From Pilibacter termitis (lineage in GTDB: Bacteria > Bacillota > Bacilli > Lactobacillales > Streptococcaceae), in NCBI RefSeq assembly GCF_900167335.1, contig NZ_FUXI01000005.1, positions 94,423 through 132,026 of the forward strand: 37,604 nt of DNA, read 5' to 3'. The translations under genes were made by a program, and so were the position numbers. The notes below the pieces were generated by a model that worked only from the letters and a program-made list of their open reading frames with translations, did not search any database and had not been told where the DNA came from. This document shows, piece by piece, positions 12,567 through 32,355 of the stretch (within the stretch, counting starts at the first letter, position 1; each line of letters starts with the position of its first letter).

Positions 12567-13625
12567 ATGACAGAAAATATTTTAGAAGTAAAAAACTTAA
12601 ACATCTCCTTTGACACGTTTGCAGGAAAAGTTCAGGCAATTCGTGGCGTGGATTTCGATTTGAAAAAAGGGGAAACTCTTGCGATTGTAGGTGAAAGTGG
12701 GAGCGGAAAATCCGTTACCACTCGTACGATCATGGGACTTCTTGCTAACAACGGGAACATTGACTCTGGAGAAATTTTATTCAAGGGTAAAGATTTAACA
12801 AAAATATCCGAAAAAGAGTATCAAAACTTGCGTGGAAAAGACATTTCAATGATTTTCCAAGACCCAATGACCTCACTTGACCCAACCATGACCATTGGCA
12901 AACAAGTGGCTGAAGGGTTGCGTAAGCATAAAAAAGTGAGCAAAAAAGAGGCGGAGCAAGAGGCTCTCAGACTTTTAGAGCTTGTTGGGATTCCAAATGC
13001 TGCTGGGCGTTTGAACAACTATCCGCACCAATTTTCTGGTGGGCAAAGGCAGCGTATTGTCATTGCGATTGCTCTTGTCACACACCCAGAAATTGTGATT
13101 GCTGATGAACCTACTACTGCTCTTGATGTGACCATTCAAGCACAAATTTTGGAGTTGTTAAAACAAATTCAAGAAAAAATTGATATGTCGATTATTTTTA
13201 TCACACATGACTTAGGTGTTGTCGCAAATGTGGCAGACAGAGTAGCGGTTATGTATGGTGGGCGAATTGTCGAAGTAGGGACAAGTGATGAAATTTTCTA
13301 CAATCCACAACATCCTTATACATGGGGATTGTTGAGTTCTATGCCGACACTTGACACCAATGACGGAGAAAGTTTGTACGCTATTCCCGGTACTCCTCCT
13401 GATTTGCTCAATCCACCAAAAGGGGATGCGTTCGCAGCAAGAAATGCGTTTGCTCTAGCAATTGATTTTGAGGAAGAACCTCCTTATTTCGAGCTTTCAA
13501 GCACGCACAAAGCGGCAACTTGGCTTTTAGATGAACGTGCACCGAAAGTGGAAGTGCCTGATGAAATTAAAAAACGTTATGCGTATTTTGAAGAAAAACA
13601 ACGTGGGAAAGAGGTGAAGGCATGA
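12567..13625 (+). CDS. oppD: Oligopeptide ABC transporter ATP-binding protein OppD
   Basis: Cytoplasmic ATPase that powers uptake as a heterodimer with OppF. The 352-aa product has Walker A GESGSGKS (42-49), the Q-loop MIFQDP, signature FSGGQRQR, Walker [13 protein letters not shown] and switch ITHDLG. The C-terminal oligo_HPY extension ([12 protein letters not shown], then IPGTPPDL) is typical of peptide transporters. The usual cysteine cluster of iron-sulfur OppD proteins is not visible; the equivalent region reads [16 protein letters not shown] lies eight nt before the ATG. The last bases overlap oppF (ATGA). Confidence 0.94.
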
Positions 13626-14563
13626 GTCAGAAAAAATTGCTTGAGGTAAAAAATCTTCACCAAATTTTCAATGCCAACACAAAAAAAGAAGTACGTGCCG
13701 TAGATGATATTTCTTTTCACATTTTTGAAGGGGAAACATTTGGTCTTGTAGGCGAAAGTGGGAGCGGGAAATCTACCACAGGTCGCTCGATTATCCGTTT
13801 GTATGAACCAACAAAAGGTGAAATTCTCTTTGACGGTGAAAACATCGCCAATCTAAAGAAAAAAGCTCAGATGAAAGATTTCAGACAAAAAGTGCAGATG
13901 ATTTTCCAAGATCCTGCTGCTAGTTTGAACTCAAGAATGAAAGTGCGTGATATTATCGCAGAGGGATTGGACGTGTTTCGCTTAACCAAAACTCCTCAAG
14001 AGCGTGAAGAACGTGTAAAAGAGCTTTTGCGTACCGTAGGTCTGGATGCAGCTCATGCAACTCGTTATCCTCATGAATTTTCAGGTGGACAACGGCAGCG
14101 GATTGGTATTGCACGTGCTTTAGCTGTGCGACCTAAGTTCATTATTGCAGATGAGCCGATTTCTGCTCTTGATGTTTCCATTCAAGCACAAGTGGTCAAT
14201 CTTTTAAAAGATTTGCAACGAAAAGAAAACTTGACCTATCTTTTCATCGCTCATGATTTGTCAATGGTGAAATACATCTCTGATAGAATTGGCGTGATGT
14301 ATATGGGTAAACTTGTTGAAGTGGGGACTGCTGAAAATATTTATAACTACGGCGTACATCCTTATACGGAAAGTTTACTTTCTGCTATTCCACTCCCTGA
14401 CCCTGATTATGAACGCAAGCGGAGACGGACGGTTTATCAGCCGATAGCAGACGACAAACCACGCAAGCTAAACGAAATTACTGACGGACATTTTGTTTAT
14501 TCGACAGATGACGAAATCGAAATGTATCGCAAGAAATTTCAAGAAAAACAACAAAATGGGTAA
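13622..14563 (+). CDS. oppF: Oligopeptide ABC transporter ATP-binding protein OppF
   Basis: Second ATPase of the importer, 313 aa. Walker [10 protein letters not shown] (44-52), Q-loop MIFQDP, signature FSGGQRQR, Walker B FIIADEPISALD, switch IAHDLS, and the peptide-family C-terminal motif HPYTESLLSAIPLPDP. The serine in place of the second threonine of DEPTTALD is common in OppF. The ATG overlaps the oppD stop by four nt; AGGTGAAGG precedes it. A structured 150-nt gap separates it from oppA. Confidence 0.94.
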   Translation: MSQKKLLEVKNLHQIFNANTKKEVRAVDDISFHIFEGETFGLVGESGSGKSTTGRSIIRLYEPTKGEILFDGENIANLKKKAQMKDFRQKVQMIFQDPAASLNSRMKVRDIIAEGLDVFRLTKTPQEREERVKELLRTVGLDAAHATRYPHEFSGGQRQRIGIARALAVRPKFIIADEPISALDVSIQAQVVNLLKDLQRKENLTYLFIAHDLSMVKYISDRIGVMYMGKLVEVGTAENIYNYGVHPYTESLLSAIPLPDPDYERKRRRTVYQPIADDKPRKLNEITDGHFVYSTDDEIEMYRKKFQEKQQNG

Positions 14564-14566
14564 TTC

Positions 14567-14583
14567 CTTGTGCTAGGCACGAG
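14567..14583 (+). other. Short hairpin after oppF
   Basis: CTTGTGC, loop TAG, GCACGAG: seven pairs including one T-G. It starts four nt after the oppF stop and has no T run. It may be an mRNA 3'-end or processing signal between oppF and oppA. Confidence 0.4.
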
Positions 14584-14595
14584 TTAATTGCAATA

Positions 14596-14656
14596 TTGTC
14601 CGCATATTTCGGACACCCCCAGATATGCGGGCAATTATATGGTAATTGGGGGCGTC
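14596..14656 (+). promoter_or_regulatory. Structured RNA element before oppA (possible pseudoknot)
   Basis: Stem 1: TTGTCCGCATAT (14596-14607) pairs with ATATGCGGGCAA (14623-14634), 12 pairs with one wobble. Stem 2: GACACCCCCA (14612-14621), inside the loop of stem 1, pairs with TGGGGGCGTC (14647-14656), 9 of 10 pairs. Together they make an H-type pseudoknot. A third helix, TGTCCG (14597-14602) with CGGACA (14610-14615), excludes both. The element ends about 57 nt before the oppA ATG. It may act as a riboswitch, an attenuator or an mRNA-stabilising element. I do not recognise it as a known class. Confidence 0.55.
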
Positions 14657-14713
14657 ATTGTTTAGATTTTCACACTCAGTATTACACTAAATGAATCTGG
14701 AGGATTTTTAAAA

Positions 14714-16396
14714 ATGAAGAAAAACAATTTAATCAAAATCGGTGTAGGGCTATTTTCAGTAGCACTTTTGGCTGGTTGCTCTACTACGACAAATGACAAG
14801 AAAGACAATTCGTCAGGCGGTAGCGAAAAAATTGCGAAAACACAAGACATTAAACTAACAGTTGCACAAGAAATGCCTTCTGCTGATTTGTCAACAGCAA
14901 CAGACACTATTTCTTTCTCAACATTGAACAATGTCTACGAAGGACTTTATCGTATTGATGCGAAAAATGAATTGCAACCTGCTGGTGCAGAGGAAAAAGC
15001 TGAAATCTCTGCTGACGGTTTGACTTACAAATTGAAACTTCGCAAAGAAGCAAAATGGAGCAATGGAGATGCTGTAAAAGCAAGTGATTATGTATTTGCT
15101 TGGCAACGTACGGTAAAACCAGAAACTGCTAGTGAATATGCAAGTTTATTCTTTGGTGTAGAAAATGCTGAGGCGATCAATTCTGGAAAAGAAAAAGATT
15201 TGAGCAAACTTGGAATTAAAGCAGTGGATGATTATACTTTGGAAATCAAACTTGCTCATCCTGTACCATATATGGAATATCTCTTTGCATTCCCTAGTTT
15301 CTTCCCACAAAATGAAAAAGTGGTTACTGAAAAAGGGGCAGATTATGCGAAGAAATCTGAAAATGCCGTTTACAATGGACCATTTACTCTCGAAGAATTT
15401 GACGGTCCCGGAACGGATACCGAGTGGGCATACAAGAAAAATCCACAATACTGGGACGCAAAAAATGTAAAATTGGAAAATGCAAGCGTGTCTGTCGTGA
15501 AAGATACTTCTACTGGCTTGAACTTGTTTACAGCTGGAAAAGCTGATGACGTAATGATTGCCGGAGAACAAGCGAAACAAATGGCAAATGATCCTGCTTT
15601 CCAATCTGTAAAAGAAGGGCGTACTTCTTACTTTGAATTGAACCAGTACAAAGGGAAAAACCAAAAAGTTTACGCAAATGCAAACTTCCGTAAAGCAGTT
15701 AGTTACGCTCTTGACCGTAAAGGGTTGGTTGAAAACGTATTGGGTGACGGTTCAGTAGAATCTACTGGTATCATTCCAAAAGATATGAGTTTTGACCCTA
15801 AAACAAAAGAAGACTTCGCTAAAGAAGTGGGCGACCAAGTAGAATTTGATAAGAAAAAAGCTCAAGAGTATTGGGAAAAAGCTCAAAAAGAATTGGGTAT
15901 TAAAGAAGTTTCAATGAATATTATTGCCTCAGACAATGACGATACGAAAAAAGTAATGGAAAAAATGCAAGCTGATATTCAAGATGCTTTGAAAGGTGTG
16001 AAAGTGGAACTTTCTCCTGTTCCATTTGCTGTTCGTTTGGATCGCTCAAATAGCGGAGACTTTGATACGGTTCTTGGTGGTTGGGGAGCAGACTATGCAG
16101 ACCCTTCAAGTTTCACTGATTTGTTCGTAACAGGGAACTCTTACAACCGTGGTCACTGGTCAAACGCTGAATACGACAAATTAGTTGAGGCAAGTAACAC
16201 GACAGATGCAACTGACGCTGAAAAACGTTGGGACGACATGAAGAAAGCAACAGATATTCTTGTCAAAGACGAAATGGGTGTCATTCCTGTCTTCCAAAAA
16301 GCTGAAGGACATCTTATCAATCCGAAAATCAAAGGTATTGTCCACTATGCAACAGGACCTTCTTGGTGCTATAAATGGGCATATGTTACTGAATAA
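14714..16396 (+). CDS. oppA: Oligopeptide-binding lipoprotein OppA
   Basis: Extracytoplasmic receptor of the peptide importer, anchored by lipid. The 560-aa product has a lipoprotein signal (MKKNNLIKIGVGLFSVALLA) with lipobox LAGC and lipidated C22. A Ser/Asn/Asp-rich linker follows, then an SBP_bac_5 (family 5) domain: NNVYEGLYRID, WSNGDAVKASDYVFAWQRTV, NGPFTLEEF, FRKAVSYALDRKGLV and GGWGADYADPSSFTDLF. This pattern matches Gram-positive OppA/peptide-pheromone-binding proteins. The ATG has GGAGG eight nt upstream. It is last in the opp order and follows a structured RNA element, which may set its level apart from oppBCDF. A weak extra promoter (TTGTTT, 16 nt, TATTAC at 14658-14685) is possible. 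Confidence 0.94.
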   Translation: MKKNNLIKIGVGLFSVALLAGCSTTTNDKKDNSSGGSEKIAKTQDIKLTVAQEMPSADLSTATDTISFSTLNNVYEGLYRIDAKNELQPAGAEEKAEISADGLTYKLKLRKEAKWSNGDAVKASDYVFAWQRTVKPETASEYASLFFGVENAEAINSGKEKDLSKLGIKAVDDYTLEIKLAHPVPYMEYLFAFPSFFPQNEKVVTEKGADYAKKSENAVYNGPFTLEEFDGPGTDTEWAYKKNPQYWDAKNVKLENASVSVVKDTSTGLNLFTAGKADDVMIAGEQAKQMANDPAFQSVKEGRTSYFELNQYKGKNQKVYANANFRKAVSYALDRKGLVENVLGDGSVESTGIIPKDMSFDPKTKEDFAKEVGDQVEFDKKKAQEYWEKAQKELGIKEVSMNIIASDNDDTKKVMEKMQADIQDALKGVKVELSPVPFAVRLDRSNSGDFDTVLGGWGADYADPSSFTDLFVTGNSYNRGHWSNAEYDKLVEASNTTDATDAEKRWDDMKKATDILVKDEMGVIPVFQKAEGHLINPKIKGIVHYATGPSWCYKWAYVTE

Positions 16397-17964: not shown

Positions 17965-18635
17965 CTAGCTGTGAAGTGCAGGTGGTTGGTCGCTGTTCGC
18001 AATGCTACTTGAAACGAAGTGTAGTAGCAAGTAAATAGCATGGCTCACTGCGACAAACTCCTGAACGCCCCGCTTGCTTTTCTTTGTCTAGCTACGAAGT
18101 GCTGAGGTCTGGTGGCTGTTCGCAACGTCGATCGAAACTTGCGTTTCGATTAAATAAACGACGTGGCTCACTACCACAGACCTCAAAACGCACTTCTCCG
18201 CTTTTCTATGTCTAGCTACGTGGGGCAGGAGTTTGGTCGCTGTTCGCAATACCACCTGAAGCTCTGCTTCAGGCAAGTAAATGCCATTGCTCACTGCGAC
18301 AAACTCCTTAACGTCCCTCGTAGCTTTTCTCTGTCTAGCTACGAGGGGCAGGTGGTTGGCAACTGCTCTCAATGTCGCTCGAAACTTCGTTTCGATGCTA
18401 GTTTTTCAAGAATCTTTGATTCTTAGAAAAACTGTATGCGAAACGAAGTGTAGCAGTGAATAAACGACATGGTTCACTGTTGCAACCCCCTGAACGCCCC
18501 TCGTAGCTTTTCTCTGTCTAGCTGCGAGGGGCAGGTGGTTGGCAACTGCTCTCAATGTCGCTCGAAACTTCGTTTCGAGTGAATAAACGACATGGCTCAC
18601 TGTTGCAACCACCTTAACGCCCCTCGTAGCTTTTC
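17965..18635 (+). repeat. Five tandem copies of the 118-bp palindromic element (cluster 1)
   Basis: Units: 17965-18082, 18088-18206, 18212-18329, 18335-18512 and 18518-18635. Each starts CTAGCT, ends GCTTTTC and is separated from the next by five nt (TNTGT). Length is 117-119 bp, except the fourth (178 bp), which carries a 60-bp extra module. Each unit folds into a long hairpin with an outer stem (GCTACGAGGGGC and GCCCCTCGTAGC), a middle stem and an inner stem (CTCGAAAC and GTTTCGAG). Arm changes are matched on the opposite arm in different units. The cluster fills the gap between the Mga-type gene and the large WxL gene. No transposase is nearby. I do not recognise the family. Confidence 0.9.
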
Positions 18636-18730
18636 GTTTTTCTTGACAACTAAAGCATAGCACCACACGTTTTTTTCGTCTGTTCAATAGTTGTGATTTT
18701 TTCTAAAAAAATGCTCTATTACTCATTCCT

Positions 18731-21187
18731 CTAACTCAACGGCTTATCCTCTAAGTTCCATGTAACAATACTACTAAATGAGCCAAGTTTTGCCTCTCCT
18801 GCTGGAATGTCAAGTGTGACATCTTCTGGTTGCCAGCTAATTTCATTCCAGCCTTTTGCTTGTTTTCCGTTGACCACACCAAACAATTCTGTGGAACTTG
18901 CTTTATTATCCGCAATGATTTCCATTGTGTTTTGCGTTTGTTTATAAGAAAATCCGCTATTGCTTGTTTTATCTGCACTACTTCCTTGAACATTGTGCAA
19001 AATGATTTTCACACCTTTTAACTCCTCTGCTTTCGTGCTATTGGTAAATGTTGTCGCACTCGCTGAAACACTCCAGCTTATCCCTTTGTCAAACATTCTC
19101 CCGTCAAAAATTTGTAGCACTTGTTTTCCTTCTTGATTCGTCACGTCATCGTTTGCCTTTATCGTTGCTTTTGAAGTAATCCCGTTTTTCACTTTCATAT
19201 AATCAAGTCCCACTGAGCCAAAATTGAAAATGCGTGGTACTTTTGTGAAAGATAAGCCAAATGGATCAGCCTCTTTTTCTGTATTCGGATTTTTCAGCGT
19301 ATTTCCAGACAAATGTGGTTGCAATGGCATAACGAGCGTGCCTGATTTTTTAATCAATACATTTCCCTTCGTTGTTACTACATTTGGATTTTCGCCTACA
19401 ATCGAAAGTTTCCATTCTAATTCATAGGGATAATCTTTCTCCTTGGCAATTTTCCGACCTGTTTTGACAAAGAATCCTTCATCCACATCAAACTCATGTG
19501 AAAAATTTTCTTTGTCCTGCGTTGACATCGTCCTATCCGTGAAAATTTCTTCTTCCTTGTTTGGTGTCAACACTTTTTCCCCTTGTGAAGTTTTATAAAT
19601 CAATTCATGAGGAAAATTTGTTTTATCCGTTTTTAATTTCACCGTCAACTTAAATTGCCGTGGCTGATCTAAACTTAAATCAAAGGTTTGTTTTCTCGCA
19701 CTTGTTCGGTTCATTTGCTTCGTTTCACCAAATACATCAAGTTCTTCTAAAGAATAAGAGTGTCGAAACGTCTCGTCCTCTGGTAAAAACCACTCATACC
19801 TTGTCAATACAGGAATAACTGGTTGTCTCGGAAATTGTGGTTTGTCTGGAGAAGTGGTAGGGAAAATACCAATCGCTTTTGCACGTACCCAAAGAAATCT
19901 TATCGAGGAACTTACATTTGCAAAGTCTCCTCTCAAGTTTGGTAAATGCTCATTGGAAATCACCATGTCAATATCTCTATCTGCAAGTGCATACATATCA
20001 CGATTATTGAACGTTAAATTGAAATTCTCATTTCTATCAAAAAAATCTTGCTCATTCGACGCCATAATGAAAGTATTGGCACCATTGGCATTTAGCACAA
20101 TTCTATTTTGTTTAGCATAATTGGTCTGCTGGTTATTTTTACGGGAAACTATTTTTCCGTCTGCATCGAAAAACGAAACACTTCCACTCTCCGCTCTAAA
20201 ATAATAAGAACTATTATTCACATTACTTGCCTCTTGTGCGTTGGCTAAATTTCCATTTTGACTTGACTCAAACATATCAAAATCAAAAATTTTTCCTCGT
20301 GTATTAATAAACGTTTTCGCATTTCTCTCTAACAAATAACGCACTTGCCAAAATTTGCTCCGTGAATTTTGAAAAGTAGCTGATTTTCCAAACTTAAACT
20401 CAAGTGTTCCTTTATTGTTCAAAATAAATCTTCTATTTTTCGAGTTACTATTGGTTTCCACCCAGCCATACTGGTTGTTCTCTGCCGTCCAAAATAACTC
20501 CGAGCGATTTTCTACATATACTCTCATTCTATCCAATTTCGATTGGTTAGAAGAATACCACAACGCTCCTGTACTACTTTTGTCATCCAACAACGTCATA
20601 CCGTTCATCACAAGCAATTCTGCCGCCTCTAATGAGGGTAAATTTTTTGACCCTGCATATTGGAAAAAATTTTTCCCTCTAAATGTCGCACTTCCTGTTT
20701 CTTGCACAAGAAAACGATTGTTGTCCTGTATAATAGGAGCAATCCACGTCACATCTTGGAAAATAAGATTTCTCATATCGGCACCATGTGAAACTTTTCC
20801 CGATACCAAGCCATACCGATTGACAAAATAAGCGTCCATTCTTGATTTTCCGTCTGTTGTTGGTGCGAATTTGTAAACGCCATTCTTTTCTCCTGTGACG
20901 TTAAAATTTTTCAAGGTTACTTCCGCATTGTTTTTCCCAATCATCGCAGGCAAATCGTCTTTTTCAAAAAACACCCTTGCCCCATTAAAATCAATTGTCA
21001 CATCTGCTAAAATATCCGTTTGTGACGGTATAGTAATTTTCTTTGATTTTACTGTAATACTTGCCTCTTTTTTCGCAAGAGCATCCGCTAATTCATCGCC
21101 ATTTGTTACATCTTTTGCCAAAACATTCTCTGACAAAAAGAAAACAGAAAGCATGAAAGCAAATAGAACAGATAGTTTTATTTTCAA
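18731..21187 (-). CDS. Large WxL-domain surface protein with beta-helix-like N-terminal part
   Basis: An 818-aa secreted protein that probably binds peptidoglycan through its C-terminal WxL domain. It has a signal peptide (MKIKLSVLFAFMLSVFFLSE, cleavage likely near VLA). About 30-430 looks like a pectate-lyase-type repeat region: short strands such as ITIPSQTDILADVTIDFNGA, with frequent Asn and Gly. A middle beta-rich region follows, then a WxL domain from about 640 with ISWQPEDVTLDIPAG and the final VTWNLEDKPLS. The start is a TTG with AAGGAG six nt upstream; the ATG further up lies inside a palindromic repeat and is rejected. It is last in the minus-strand WxL cluster, after two repeat units that interrupt the operon. 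Confidence 0.85.
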   Translation of the reverse strand: MKIKLSVLFAFMLSVFFLSENVLAKDVTNGDELADALAKKEASITVKSKKITIPSQTDILADVTIDFNGARVFFEKDDLPAMIGKNNAEVTLKNFNVTGEKNGVYKFAPTTDGKSRMDAYFVNRYGLVSGKVSHGADMRNLIFQDVTWIAPIIQDNNRFLVQETGSATFRGKNFFQYAGSKNLPSLEAAELLVMNGMTLLDDKSSTGALWYSSNQSKLDRMRVYVENRSELFWTAENNQYGWVETNSNSKNRRFILNNKGTLEFKFGKSATFQNSRSKFWQVRYLLERNAKTFINTRGKIFDFDMFESSQNGNLANAQEASNVNNSSYYFRAESGSVSFFDADGKIVSRKNNQQTNYAKQNRIVLNANGANTFIMASNEQDFFDRNENFNLTFNNRDMYALADRDIDMVISNEHLPNLRGDFANVSSSIRFLWVRAKAIGIFPTTSPDKPQFPRQPVIPVLTRYEWFLPEDETFRHSYSLEELDVFGETKQMNRTSARKQTFDLSLDQPRQFKLTVKLKTDKTNFPHELIYKTSQGEKVLTPNKEEEIFTDRTMSTQDKENFSHEFDVDEGFFVKTGRKIAKEKDYPYELEWKLSIVGENPNVVTTKGNVLIKKSGTLVMPLQPHLSGNTLKNPNTEKEADPFGLSFTKVPRIFNFGSVGLDYMKVKNGITSKATIKANDDVTNQEGKQVLQIFDGRMFDKGISWSVSASATTFTNSTKAEELKGVKIILHNVQGSSADKTSNSGFSYKQTQNTMEIIADNKASSTELFGVVNGKQAKGWNEISWQPEDVTLDIPAGEAKLGSFSSIVTWNLEDKPLS

Positions 21188-21212
21188 TTTTCTTCTCCTT
21201 ATACTTTTTTGT

Positions 21213-21454
21213 CCAGCTATGAGGGGCTGAAGTTTGGCAACTGTTCGCAGTGCCGCTCGAAACTCTGTTTCGAGCAAGTAAACGGCACGGCTCACTGTTG
21301 CAAACTTCAAAACGCCCCTCTCCGCTTTTCTTATTGTCTAGCTATGAGAGGCTGAAGTTTGGCAACTGCTCACAATGTCACTTGAAGCTTCGCTTCAAGT
21401 AAATAAACGACAGTGTTCACTGTTGCAGACTTCAAAACGCACTTCTCACCTTTC
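21213..21454 (+). repeat. Two copies of the palindromic element (cluster 2)
   Basis: Units 21213-21330 (118 bp) and 21338-21454 (117 bp), seven nt apart. The inner stems differ but stay paired: CTCGAAAC with GTTTCGAG in the first, CTTGAAGC with GCTTCAAG in the second. They sit inside the WxL cluster, between the LLNTG gene and the large WxL gene. The second unit overlaps the last 23 nt of the LLNTG gene and supplies its final codons and stop. Confidence 0.9.
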
Positions 21455-26274: not shown

Positions 26275-26330
26275 AAAAACCACATAAACTCAACATTTTA
26301 GAGAACTATGTTGAGTTTATGTGGTTTTTG
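26275..26330 (+). terminator. Terminator after purA
   Basis: A stem of more than 16 bp (CACATAAACTCAACAT with ATGTTGAGTTTATGTG), flanked by A on the left and TTTTTG on the right. The long symmetric stem could act in both directions. Confidence 0.9.
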
Positions 26331-26664
26331 TATTTATGGCGGAGGTTTTTTAGAGGTACCCTTATTTGTGGAAATTTATTGTTTCACCTCCCATACTGTC
26401 AAGACAAAGAAGAATAACGAATAAGTCTACTTTTTTTAGACAATAAACCGTCATTTTTTTATATTGAGGAGGGAAAAATTGATAAAAAGCGTAGAAATGT
26501 TGAAATATCAATGGTATAGACCGTATCAAAAATTTTTATGCTTGTGAAGCTGAGTCGGGTTGCTATTAAAAAAATGAATGTAGTTTTATGATTATCTTGT
26601 AAATGAAACAGGAGAACATACAAAATGATATGTCTAGTCAAATAAACAATGGAGGCAAAATAAA
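26331..26664 (+). promoter_or_regulatory. Upstream region and promoters of the first sortase-fold gene
   Basis: No standard gene. Two plausible promoters face the gene at 26665: TAGACA, 17 nt, TATATT (26437-26465), and TTGTAA, 16 nt, TACAAA (26597-26624). The first would give a leader of about 190 nt. A GGTACCC palindrome lies at 26355. A 22-codon frame at 26479-26547, starting TTG, has a very strong ribosome-binding site (GAGGAGGG) but overlaps the predicted transcription start. Confidence 0.5.
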
Positions 26665-29706: not shown

Positions 29707-30244
29707 ATAGGTGGTTGCGTGGGTTGAAATTTGGTAAGTGTTCGCAATGTCGCTTGAAACTTTGATTCAAGCATGGCTCTCTGCGACAACCTCCTGAACG
29801 CCCCTCTTGCTTTTCTTTGTCTAGCTACGAGGGGCTGAAGTCTGGCAACTGCTCACAATGTCGCTAGAAACTTACGTTTCTAGTAAATGAACGACAGTGT
29901 TTGCTGTTGCAGACTTCAAAACGCCCCGCTCGCTTTTCTCTGTCTAGCTACGAGGGGCAGGAGGTTGGTCGCTGTTCGCAATCCCACTTGAAGCTTTGCT
30001 TCAAGCAAGTAAATGGCATGGCTCACTGCGACAACCTCCTGAACGCCCCGCTCGCTTTTCTTTGTCTAGCTACGAGGGGCTGAAGTCTGGTGGCTGTTCG
30101 CAGTGCCGCTCGAAACTTGCGTTTTGATGCTAGTCTTTCAAGAATCTTTGATTCTTAGAAAGACTGTATGCGAAACGAAGTGTAGTAGCAAGTGAACGGC
30201 ACGGCTCACTGCCACAGACTTCAAAACGCCCCTCTTCGCTTTTC
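29707..30244 (+). repeat. Four tandem copies of the palindromic element (cluster 3)
   Basis: Units: 29707-29815 (degenerate, shortened in its centre), 29821-29938 (118 bp), 29944-30060 (117 bp) and 30066-30244 (179 bp). Separators are five nt. The last has the same extra module of about 60 bp as the fourth unit of cluster 1. That module has its own hairpin, and its arms have changed together: AGTCTTTC with GAAAGACT here, AGTTTTTC with GAAAAACT in cluster 1. The cluster fills the space between the Mga-like gene and the second sortase-fold gene, ending two nt before the latter's stop codon. Confidence 0.9.
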
Positions 30245-31549: not shown

Positions 31550-32355
31550 ATTTAGAACCCTTAAACCCCGTGAGGGGACGGAAACCTATCTAAGGCTTGC
31601 TTAGTGCCTTCATCTAAAATTTAGAACCCTTAAACCCCGTGAGGGGACGGAAACTTTGTAGTACAAATGTCAGGAGTTCCGGGAGTATTTAGAACCCTTA
31701 AACCCCGTGAGGGGACGGAAACGGTGTCCATAGTGCTGCCATTAAAGCTACCAATAATTTAGAACCCTTAAACCCCGTGAGGGGACGGAAACATTTTTTC
31801 CTTCAGGGTCAACTGCCCCCACATTTTCCATTTAGAACCCTTAAACCCCGTGAGGGGACGGAAACTATCAACTAACTTTTGTTCGATTTTACCGCTTACA
31901 TTTAGAACCCTTAAACCCCGTGAGGGGACGGAAACACGATACTTTTTCTCATCAAACCCCACATAAAATTTAGAACCCTTAAACCCCGTGAGGGGACGGA
32001 AACCAAATCATTTGCTTGTGACGACGGATTATCCTGTAACATTTAGAACCCTTAAACCCCGTGAGGGGACGGAAACATGTAGAAGATGGTTTGGAGGATT
32101 TGATGAATACATTTAGAACCCTTAAACCCCGTGAGGGGACGGAAACCGAGTACGGGTCACGATAGTCTTTCATCGTTTGAATCATTTAGAACCCTTAAAC
32201 CCCGTGAGGGGACGGAAACAAATTCTACAATTCCTGAAAATTTTGACATTTTGAATTTAGAACCCTTAAACCCCGAGAGGGGACGGAAACAATCGCCCTG
32301 TGAGCGATACGTTGTTAATCATCTATTTTAGAACCCTTAAACCCCGTGAGGGGAC
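31550..32355 (+). CRISPR. Type III-A-like CRISPR array, 12 repeats and 11 spacers, no adjacent cas genes
   Basis: Repeats of 36 nt start ATTTAGAACCCTTAAA, contain the palindrome CCCCGTGAGGGG and end ACGGAAAC. Repeat starts: 31550, 31619, 31687, 31757, 31830, 31900, 31968, 32041, 32111, 32184, 32255 and 32326. Spacers are 32-37 nt, all different. The eleventh repeat has one change (GAGA for GTGA in the loop); the twelfth is altered at its first base and has lost its GGAAAC end. The degenerate end shows that the array reads left to right with the leader at the left. The last eight nt, ACGGAAAC, match the 5' handle of S. thermophilus type III-A crRNAs. No cas6, csm or cas10 gene flanks it. Confidence 0.95.

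Follow-up and report, generated by a model that had tools for sequence, protein, structure and literature searches.

Two crossing helices between oppF and oppA of Pilibacter termitis: a candidate lineage-specific RNA structure within an opp operon

Introduction

In the 37,604-nt stretch of Pilibacter termitis DNA analysed here (the window), the binding-protein gene oppA stands behind the ATPase gene oppF on the same strand, and the RNA of the 150-nt gap between them can be drawn as two helices that cross each other. A sequence-only reading of this gap had described a pseudoknot in three-way competition with a further hairpin and had proposed a metabolite-sensing or differential-expression element. 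Such a locus raises the question of whether the pairings exceed what chance would provide, which of them may form, and what a structure placed between the genes for a transporter and for its receptor may do.

Genes and signals around the gap

Five genes of a peptide transporter stand in the order B-C-D-F-A; the family models that match them best assign their products to OppB, OppC, OppD, OppF and an OppA-type binding protein, and OppB alone passes its curated cut-off. The oppF stop ends at 14563 and the oppA ATG lies at 14714 (Table 1). The gap sequence is present in a single copy in its own genome, where other matches are 14-24 nt long with E above 2. Scans of the gap revealed neither a promoter-like site (9 of 12 matches) nor a terminator-like site, and a G+C-rich stem followed by a U run is not found there. 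Because no promoter or terminator is scored in the gap, oppA is presumably co-transcribed with the preceding genes. Short ORFs within the gap include 25 codons from a TTG at 14588, 32 from a TTG at 14596 and 8 from an ATG at 14639; a leader peptide was considered and set aside, as none has a good ribosome-binding site by eye.

Rfam 15 gives no match at or above gathering score anywhere in the window, in agreement with the earlier statement that no familiar riboswitch class is matched. Seven weak matches with E up to 10 fall within 14540-14740, all far below the scores of their families; the best of them, MIR1444, reaches 20.7 bits where 80 are required.

Elsewhere in the window, a CRISPR-like tandem array occupies 31550-32295 (repeat of about 36 nt, ATTTAGAACCCTTAAACCCCGTGAGGGGACGGAAAC, plus spacers; period about 73, 10.6 copies). 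Related repeats with inner hairpins are located at 18240-18640, 21209-21447 and 29771-30118, the last two with a period of 122-125 nt, and pieces similar to the 122-125-nt repeats occur in other stretches of the same genome (L113 and perhaps L110). The minus-strand ORF 18731-21310 shares its N-terminal part with one such repeat, and its TTG start is therefore doubtful.

Table 1. Coordinates of the gap, of its pairing arms and of the oppA leader signals (numbering of the window)
Feature	Position	Strand	Remarks
oppF-oppA intergenic gap	14564..14713	+	150 nt; between ORFs 13622-14563 and 14714-16396
Small upstream hairpin, CTTGTGC-TAG-GCACGAG	14567..14583	+	in the minimum-free-energy fold; just past the oppF stop; without U-tract
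Outer nested helix, 5' arm	14584..14591	+	competes with S2
S1, 5' arm, TTGTCCGCATAT	14596..14607	+	
Competing hairpin, 5' arm, TGTCCG	14597..14602	+	excludes S1
Competing hairpin, 3' arm, CGGACA	14610..14615	+	6 bp with TGTCCG
S2, 5' arm, GACACCCCCA	14612..14621	+	within the S1 loop
S1, 3' arm, ATATGCGGGCAA	14623..14634	+	
Outer nested helix, 3' arm	14642..14649	+	shares 14647-14649 with the S2 3' arm
S2, 3' arm, TGGGGGCGTC	14647..14656	+	9 of 10 pairs
Weak helix partly covering the Shine-Dalgarno	14661..14669	+	with 14693-14701; -6.8 kcal/mol for 14657-14713
oppA Shine-Dalgarno, GGAGG	14699..14703	+	42 nt past the S2 end; predicted unpaired 0.16-0.41 per base

Pairings and competing folds

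The pairings themselves are all present as the sequence-only reading had listed them: the 12-bp stem S1, the 9-of-10 pairing of its loop with downstream sequence (S2), connecting loops of 4, 1 and 12 nt, and the TGTCCG/CGGACA helix. One of the 12 pairs of S1 is U-G, its loop comprises the 15 nt of 14608-14622, and the one mismatch in S2 is A14615/C14653. With a hairpin loop that pairs beyond its own hairpin and loops of these lengths, the gap has the layout of an H-type pseudoknot. Read in the same way, the antisense strand is equally pairable (11 of 12 pairs in S1; 10 of 10 in S2, including one G-U).

The best nested fold of the gap consists of three parts: the small hairpin, the S1 hairpin enclosed by the outer helix, and the weak helix that touches the Shine-Dalgarno sequence. 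S1 is lengthened in this fold by the pair A14595-T14635 and by T14608-G14622 and T14609-A14621. The best nested fold of 14584-14656 has -27.3 kcal/mol, about 11 better than the competing hairpin, and the third helix contributes -7.1 kcal/mol alone and -16.5 together with the core of S2; a balanced competition between three structures is thus not borne out. The outer helix 14584-14591/14642-14649, overlooked as a competitor until now, occupies part of the downstream strand of S2, and in these folding models the real rivalry is predicted to be between the pseudoknot and this helix. When the growing transcript is folded in 6-nt steps, the competing hairpin appears in the best fold only at RNA ends 14618 and 14624, and the long S1 hairpin is present from RNA end 14630 onward; the competing hairpin is therefore a folding intermediate at most.

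These energies bear directly on the proposal that the gap is a metabolite-sensing riboswitch, switching by exchange between S1, S2 and the competing hairpin. Crossing and competing helices, together with a weak helix over part of the Shine-Dalgarno sequence, are the features that invite this proposal, but the hairpin that would have to take part in the exchange is about 11 kcal/mol worse, and S2, ending at 14656, stops 42 nt before the Shine-Dalgarno sequence, which starts at 14699 and is left uncovered by S2, the weak helix there being separate. Nothing was found that points to a ligand. No Rfam family reaches its gathering score, all seven of the weak matches falling far short of theirs, and neither a second copy nor a relative was found in the genomes searched. 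A riboswitch at this site is accordingly very unlikely.

The arms of the competing hairpin could also be read as DNA, since TGTCCG-N7-CGGACA is a perfect 6-bp inverted repeat that a regulator might bind in double-stranded form. Such an operator would, however, have no second exact copy in the genome when the spacing is varied from 4 to 12 nt, would lie inside an operon in a gap where no promoter is scored, and would leave S2 and the rest of S1 unexplained; we give it very little credence.

Rarity of the pairing pattern

The strength of the crossing helices was expressed by a simple H-type score, a rough model with assumed stacking energies and an assumed pseudoknot penalty of 9.6 kcal/mol; the score of the gap, -30.3, serves for ranking and for comparison with shuffles only and is not comparable with the ViennaRNA value of -27.3 for choosing a fold. 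None of 400 and none of 20,000 dinucleotide shuffles of the gap matches it (mean of the 20,000, -5.47; sd 3.34; best -26.94), and the H-type pseudoknot drawn in the earlier reading lies far beyond chance by this measure. With S1 held fixed, shuffling the loop and the downstream sequence gives a second helix equal to or better than S2 in 61 of 20,000 trials. The hairpin 14590-14662 alone is unexceptional (z = -1.40; an equally good fold in 16 of 200 shuffles), and the fold of the whole gap is as stable in none of 200 shuffles (z = -2.98).

As a background, 17,196 overlapping 150-nt segments were scored on both strands of 432,026 bases (the window plus 20 further stretches, about 15% of the genome). 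By total score, the gap ranks second, surpassed by the 22-bp stem of 26275-26352; when each segment is judged by its weaker helix, the gap comes first (-18.94). The runner-up by the weaker helix (-17.84, L113:812-880) overlaps two mechanically called ORFs and resembles a copy of the 122-125-nt repeat of the genome, and the best further segment clear of ORFs of at least 80 aa reaches -14.49 (L126). These ranks are descriptive, because the segments overlap, cover about 15% of the genome and were compared with a candidate picked beforehand by a pseudoknot-seeking reader.

The 300 nt before oppA were scored in 32 loci, the present one included. One of them (L152), with a long terminator-like stem and a short second helix, reaches -28.4 compared with -30.3 here; another (L046) scores -15.3 over coding-like sequence, and the remaining 29 score -13.3 or weaker. 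Since L152 is nearly equal, the total score fails to separate the gap from long terminator stems, whereas the rank by weaker helix does separate it. As a sequence pattern, the combination of the two helices is far beyond chance; the formation of an H-type pseudoknot in the RNA is predicted from the model.

A further H-type pseudoknot is predicted in the same genome at L126:4271-4312, in the rpmB leader, 29 nt before a TTG start and without an Rfam match; the gene, which encodes ribosomal protein L28, was named by eye. Among 22 other rpmB leaders scored, the same genus included, the best reaches -10.7 compared with -18.8 for the own leader (rpmB was matched in 57 of 58 genomes; 30 loci were processed, the own included, of which 7 had no start by a simple rule). 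As this pseudoknot, too, is absent from the related leaders scored, pseudoknot predictions need not be functional.

Distribution among relatives

An order-wide DNA search of 395 genomes, the own included and with at most two scored candidates per genome, revealed no homologue of S1 or S2; its one other match (24 nt, 14689-14712, in genome G056) falls in the ribosome-binding region, outside both helices. A structure model found the own copy and none in the 116 other genomes of the family. Across the 395 genomes of the order it found one match beyond the own (L161, E 3e-4). This match is a terminator-like hairpin that has a T-run and lies where two ORFs converge; it was rejected as a homologue. 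This model was built from one sequence, entered twice, and describes S1 only, as it cannot hold a pseudoknot; in searches of more than 40 genomes stricter filters applied, by which weak matches are lost. Conservation of an aptamer in related genomes, which is a mark of riboswitches, is not seen with this S1-only model in the 116 family and 394 order genomes. Viral contigs (exact 25-mer search) and plasmids likewise contain no match to the gap.

The gene order around the gap is unusual among the OppF loci examined. Of 58 genomes, 52 had an OppF match, not all of which yielded a locus; 30 loci were read downstream, the own included, and in none of the 29 others does oppA come next within 1.5 kb (two of them cover just 991 and 201 nt downstream). 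From the other side, 67 OppA loci were read upstream (OppA match in 66), many spanning about 1.5 kb and a few less. An OppF-like gene lies directly upstream on the same strand in the own locus and in L046, which is distant (34% identity); L047 has an OppF fragment 2.5 kb upstream of oppA, and in L068 the genes are on the other strand. In 29 further OppA loci (L131-L159), oppA is never immediately preceded by an OppF-like gene. The genus is represented by a single further genome, 59% complete, in which neither OppF nor OppA was matched at the thresholds applied. This genome does contain a 29-nt stretch with 90% identity to 14668-14696 of the oppA leader, but the stretch (L009:1501-1529) lies past an ORF that resembles queA, where the contig ends, and not ahead of oppA.

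In the leaders of many oppA homologues of the order (L133-L151), the ribosome-binding site is immediately preceded by a motif that resembles TTCAGAAAATN-TTAATTATTCTGAAAATT and is reminiscent of a CodY box; its half-motif TTCTGAAAATT, with one mismatch allowed, is not present in the oppA leader of the window.

The most similar OppF found (77% identity) belongs to genome G010, which also has the most similar oppA (66% identity), on another contig. Downstream of its oppF lies a hairpin that ends in a T-run (locus L011), from which one might suppose that the gap preserves a decayed or partial terminator of a former oppBCDF operon, with some polymerase passing on to oppA. Yet no terminator-like site is scored in the gap, and its stem, which has an A+T-rich base and a 15-nt loop in S1, is followed by TATATGG, so that we regard this origin as unlikely.

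Covariation across homologous gaps has no material to draw on, because the gap is single-copy, gave no homologue in the search of 394 other order genomes and has no counterpart at the 29 other OppF loci. The missing homologues neither confirm nor refute a function of the gap structure. The structure may well have no function, being a by-product of the rearrangement that put oppA behind oppF or the result of C and G runs that pair by chance. The searches among relatives did not reveal it, the succession of oppF and oppA is peculiar to this locus among the 30 read, the pseudoknot predicted before rpmB in this genome is likewise unseen in the related leaders scored, and, once S1 is given, S2 is only a 61-in-20,000 event in a candidate chosen by eye. 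On the other hand, chance pairing accords poorly with first place among 17,196 segments by weaker helix and with 0 of 20,000 shuffles of the whole gap. A functionless structure is nearly as likely as the one that is set out below.

A possible role in separate mRNA decay

Our tentative choice, held with less than even confidence, is a lineage-specific intercistronic structure that sets separate decay of the oppBCDF and oppA mRNA. Transcription of oppA would start at the upstream opp promoter, and the RNA of the gap, as part of the oppBCDFA transcript, would fold into a stem-loop of 12 to 15 bp, which S2 may lock into an H-type pseudoknot. Endonuclease cleavage near the gap may then leave the structure to shield the oppA segment at its 5' end, the oppBCDF segment at its 3' end, or both. 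Receptor and transporter would consequently be made in different amounts. A Gram-positive relative would use nucleases other than RNase E for such steps. The structure would act as a fixed setting and not as a sensor, and it may have arisen in this lineage once oppA came behind oppF.

This proposal is supported by the rare and strong two-helix potential, by the gap having no scored promoter or terminator-like site, and by the position between the genes of the transporter ATPase and the binding protein, into which the earlier idea of differential expression fits as well. What the gap contains is a stable stem-loop between same-strand genes of one complex, the defining arrangement of selective-processing stem-loops. 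Against a function speaks that no conservation is seen in the genomes searched and that the pairing potential is much alike on both strands.

Exonuclease-resistant viral RNAs exist, and a bolder version of the proposal would make the gap their bacterial counterpart: a lineage-specific pseudoknot inside an operon that blocks exonucleases, fixes the receptor-to-transporter ratio and arose along with the gene rearrangement. We consider this version quite improbable. None of the titles and abstract openings searched describes a pseudoknot situated between genes of an opp operon.

The gap structure is a well-defined single-species candidate and opens no new class. If it is functional, it would show how an operon that gained a binding-protein gene at its far end set the expression of this gene by an RNA in the new joint.

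Comparison with known systems

Among riboswitches, preQ1 and SAM-II are H-type pseudoknots with first stems shorter than 12 bp. The opp gap shares with them two crossing helices upstream of a gene; unlike them, it has no Rfam match, and no coupling to the Shine-Dalgarno sequence or to a terminator is seen.

Closer parallels to the structure favoured here, one that separates the decay of two mRNA segments, come from intercistronic processing. In the cip-cel operon of Clostridium cellulolyticum, as in the opp gap, a stable stem-loop lies between genes for subunits of one complex. The stem-loop of the opp gap is without U-run, as are 28 of the 33 stem-loops near intercistronic processing sites in C. 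cellulolyticum (PMC4423207). There, processing sites have been mapped and orthologous stem-loops occur in related species (PMC4423207), whereas for the opp gap processing is proposed and a pseudoknot is possible. In papBA of E. coli, a hairpin likewise stands between two cistrons and precedes the one whose product is more abundant, and cleavage by RNase E upstream of it leaves a protected downstream mRNA (PMC5927463). That cleavage is established (PMC5927463), while cleavage near the opp gap is proposed. Protection acts mainly on the upstream segment in cip-cel (PMC4423207) and on the downstream one in papBA (PMC5927463); by analogy with these two differing cases, protection at the opp gap may be directed upstream, downstream or both. 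A survey of E. coli weakens the analogy: all 5' protective structures detected there lie in coding sequence and none in gaps, and 8 of 10 operons with such sites share them with Salmonella (PMC5927463).

For the opp genes themselves, discoordinate expression of oppA and oppBCDF is described in Vibrio cholerae, where it depends on the sRNA OppZ from the 3'-UTR of the oppABCDF operon (PMC7398697). With this precedent, the gap might instead yield an OppZ-like small RNA, derived from the 3' region of oppF and active at other sites, but no terminator-like site is found in the gap and such an RNA is hardly probable. The decay-separating structure proposed here resembles the OppZ system in that oppA and oppBCDF would be discoordinated at the level of RNA (PMC7398697). 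The layouts differ: in V. cholerae, oppA is the first gene and the sRNA represses oppB (PMC7398697), whereas in P. termitis a structure acting in cis would precede an oppA that is placed last.
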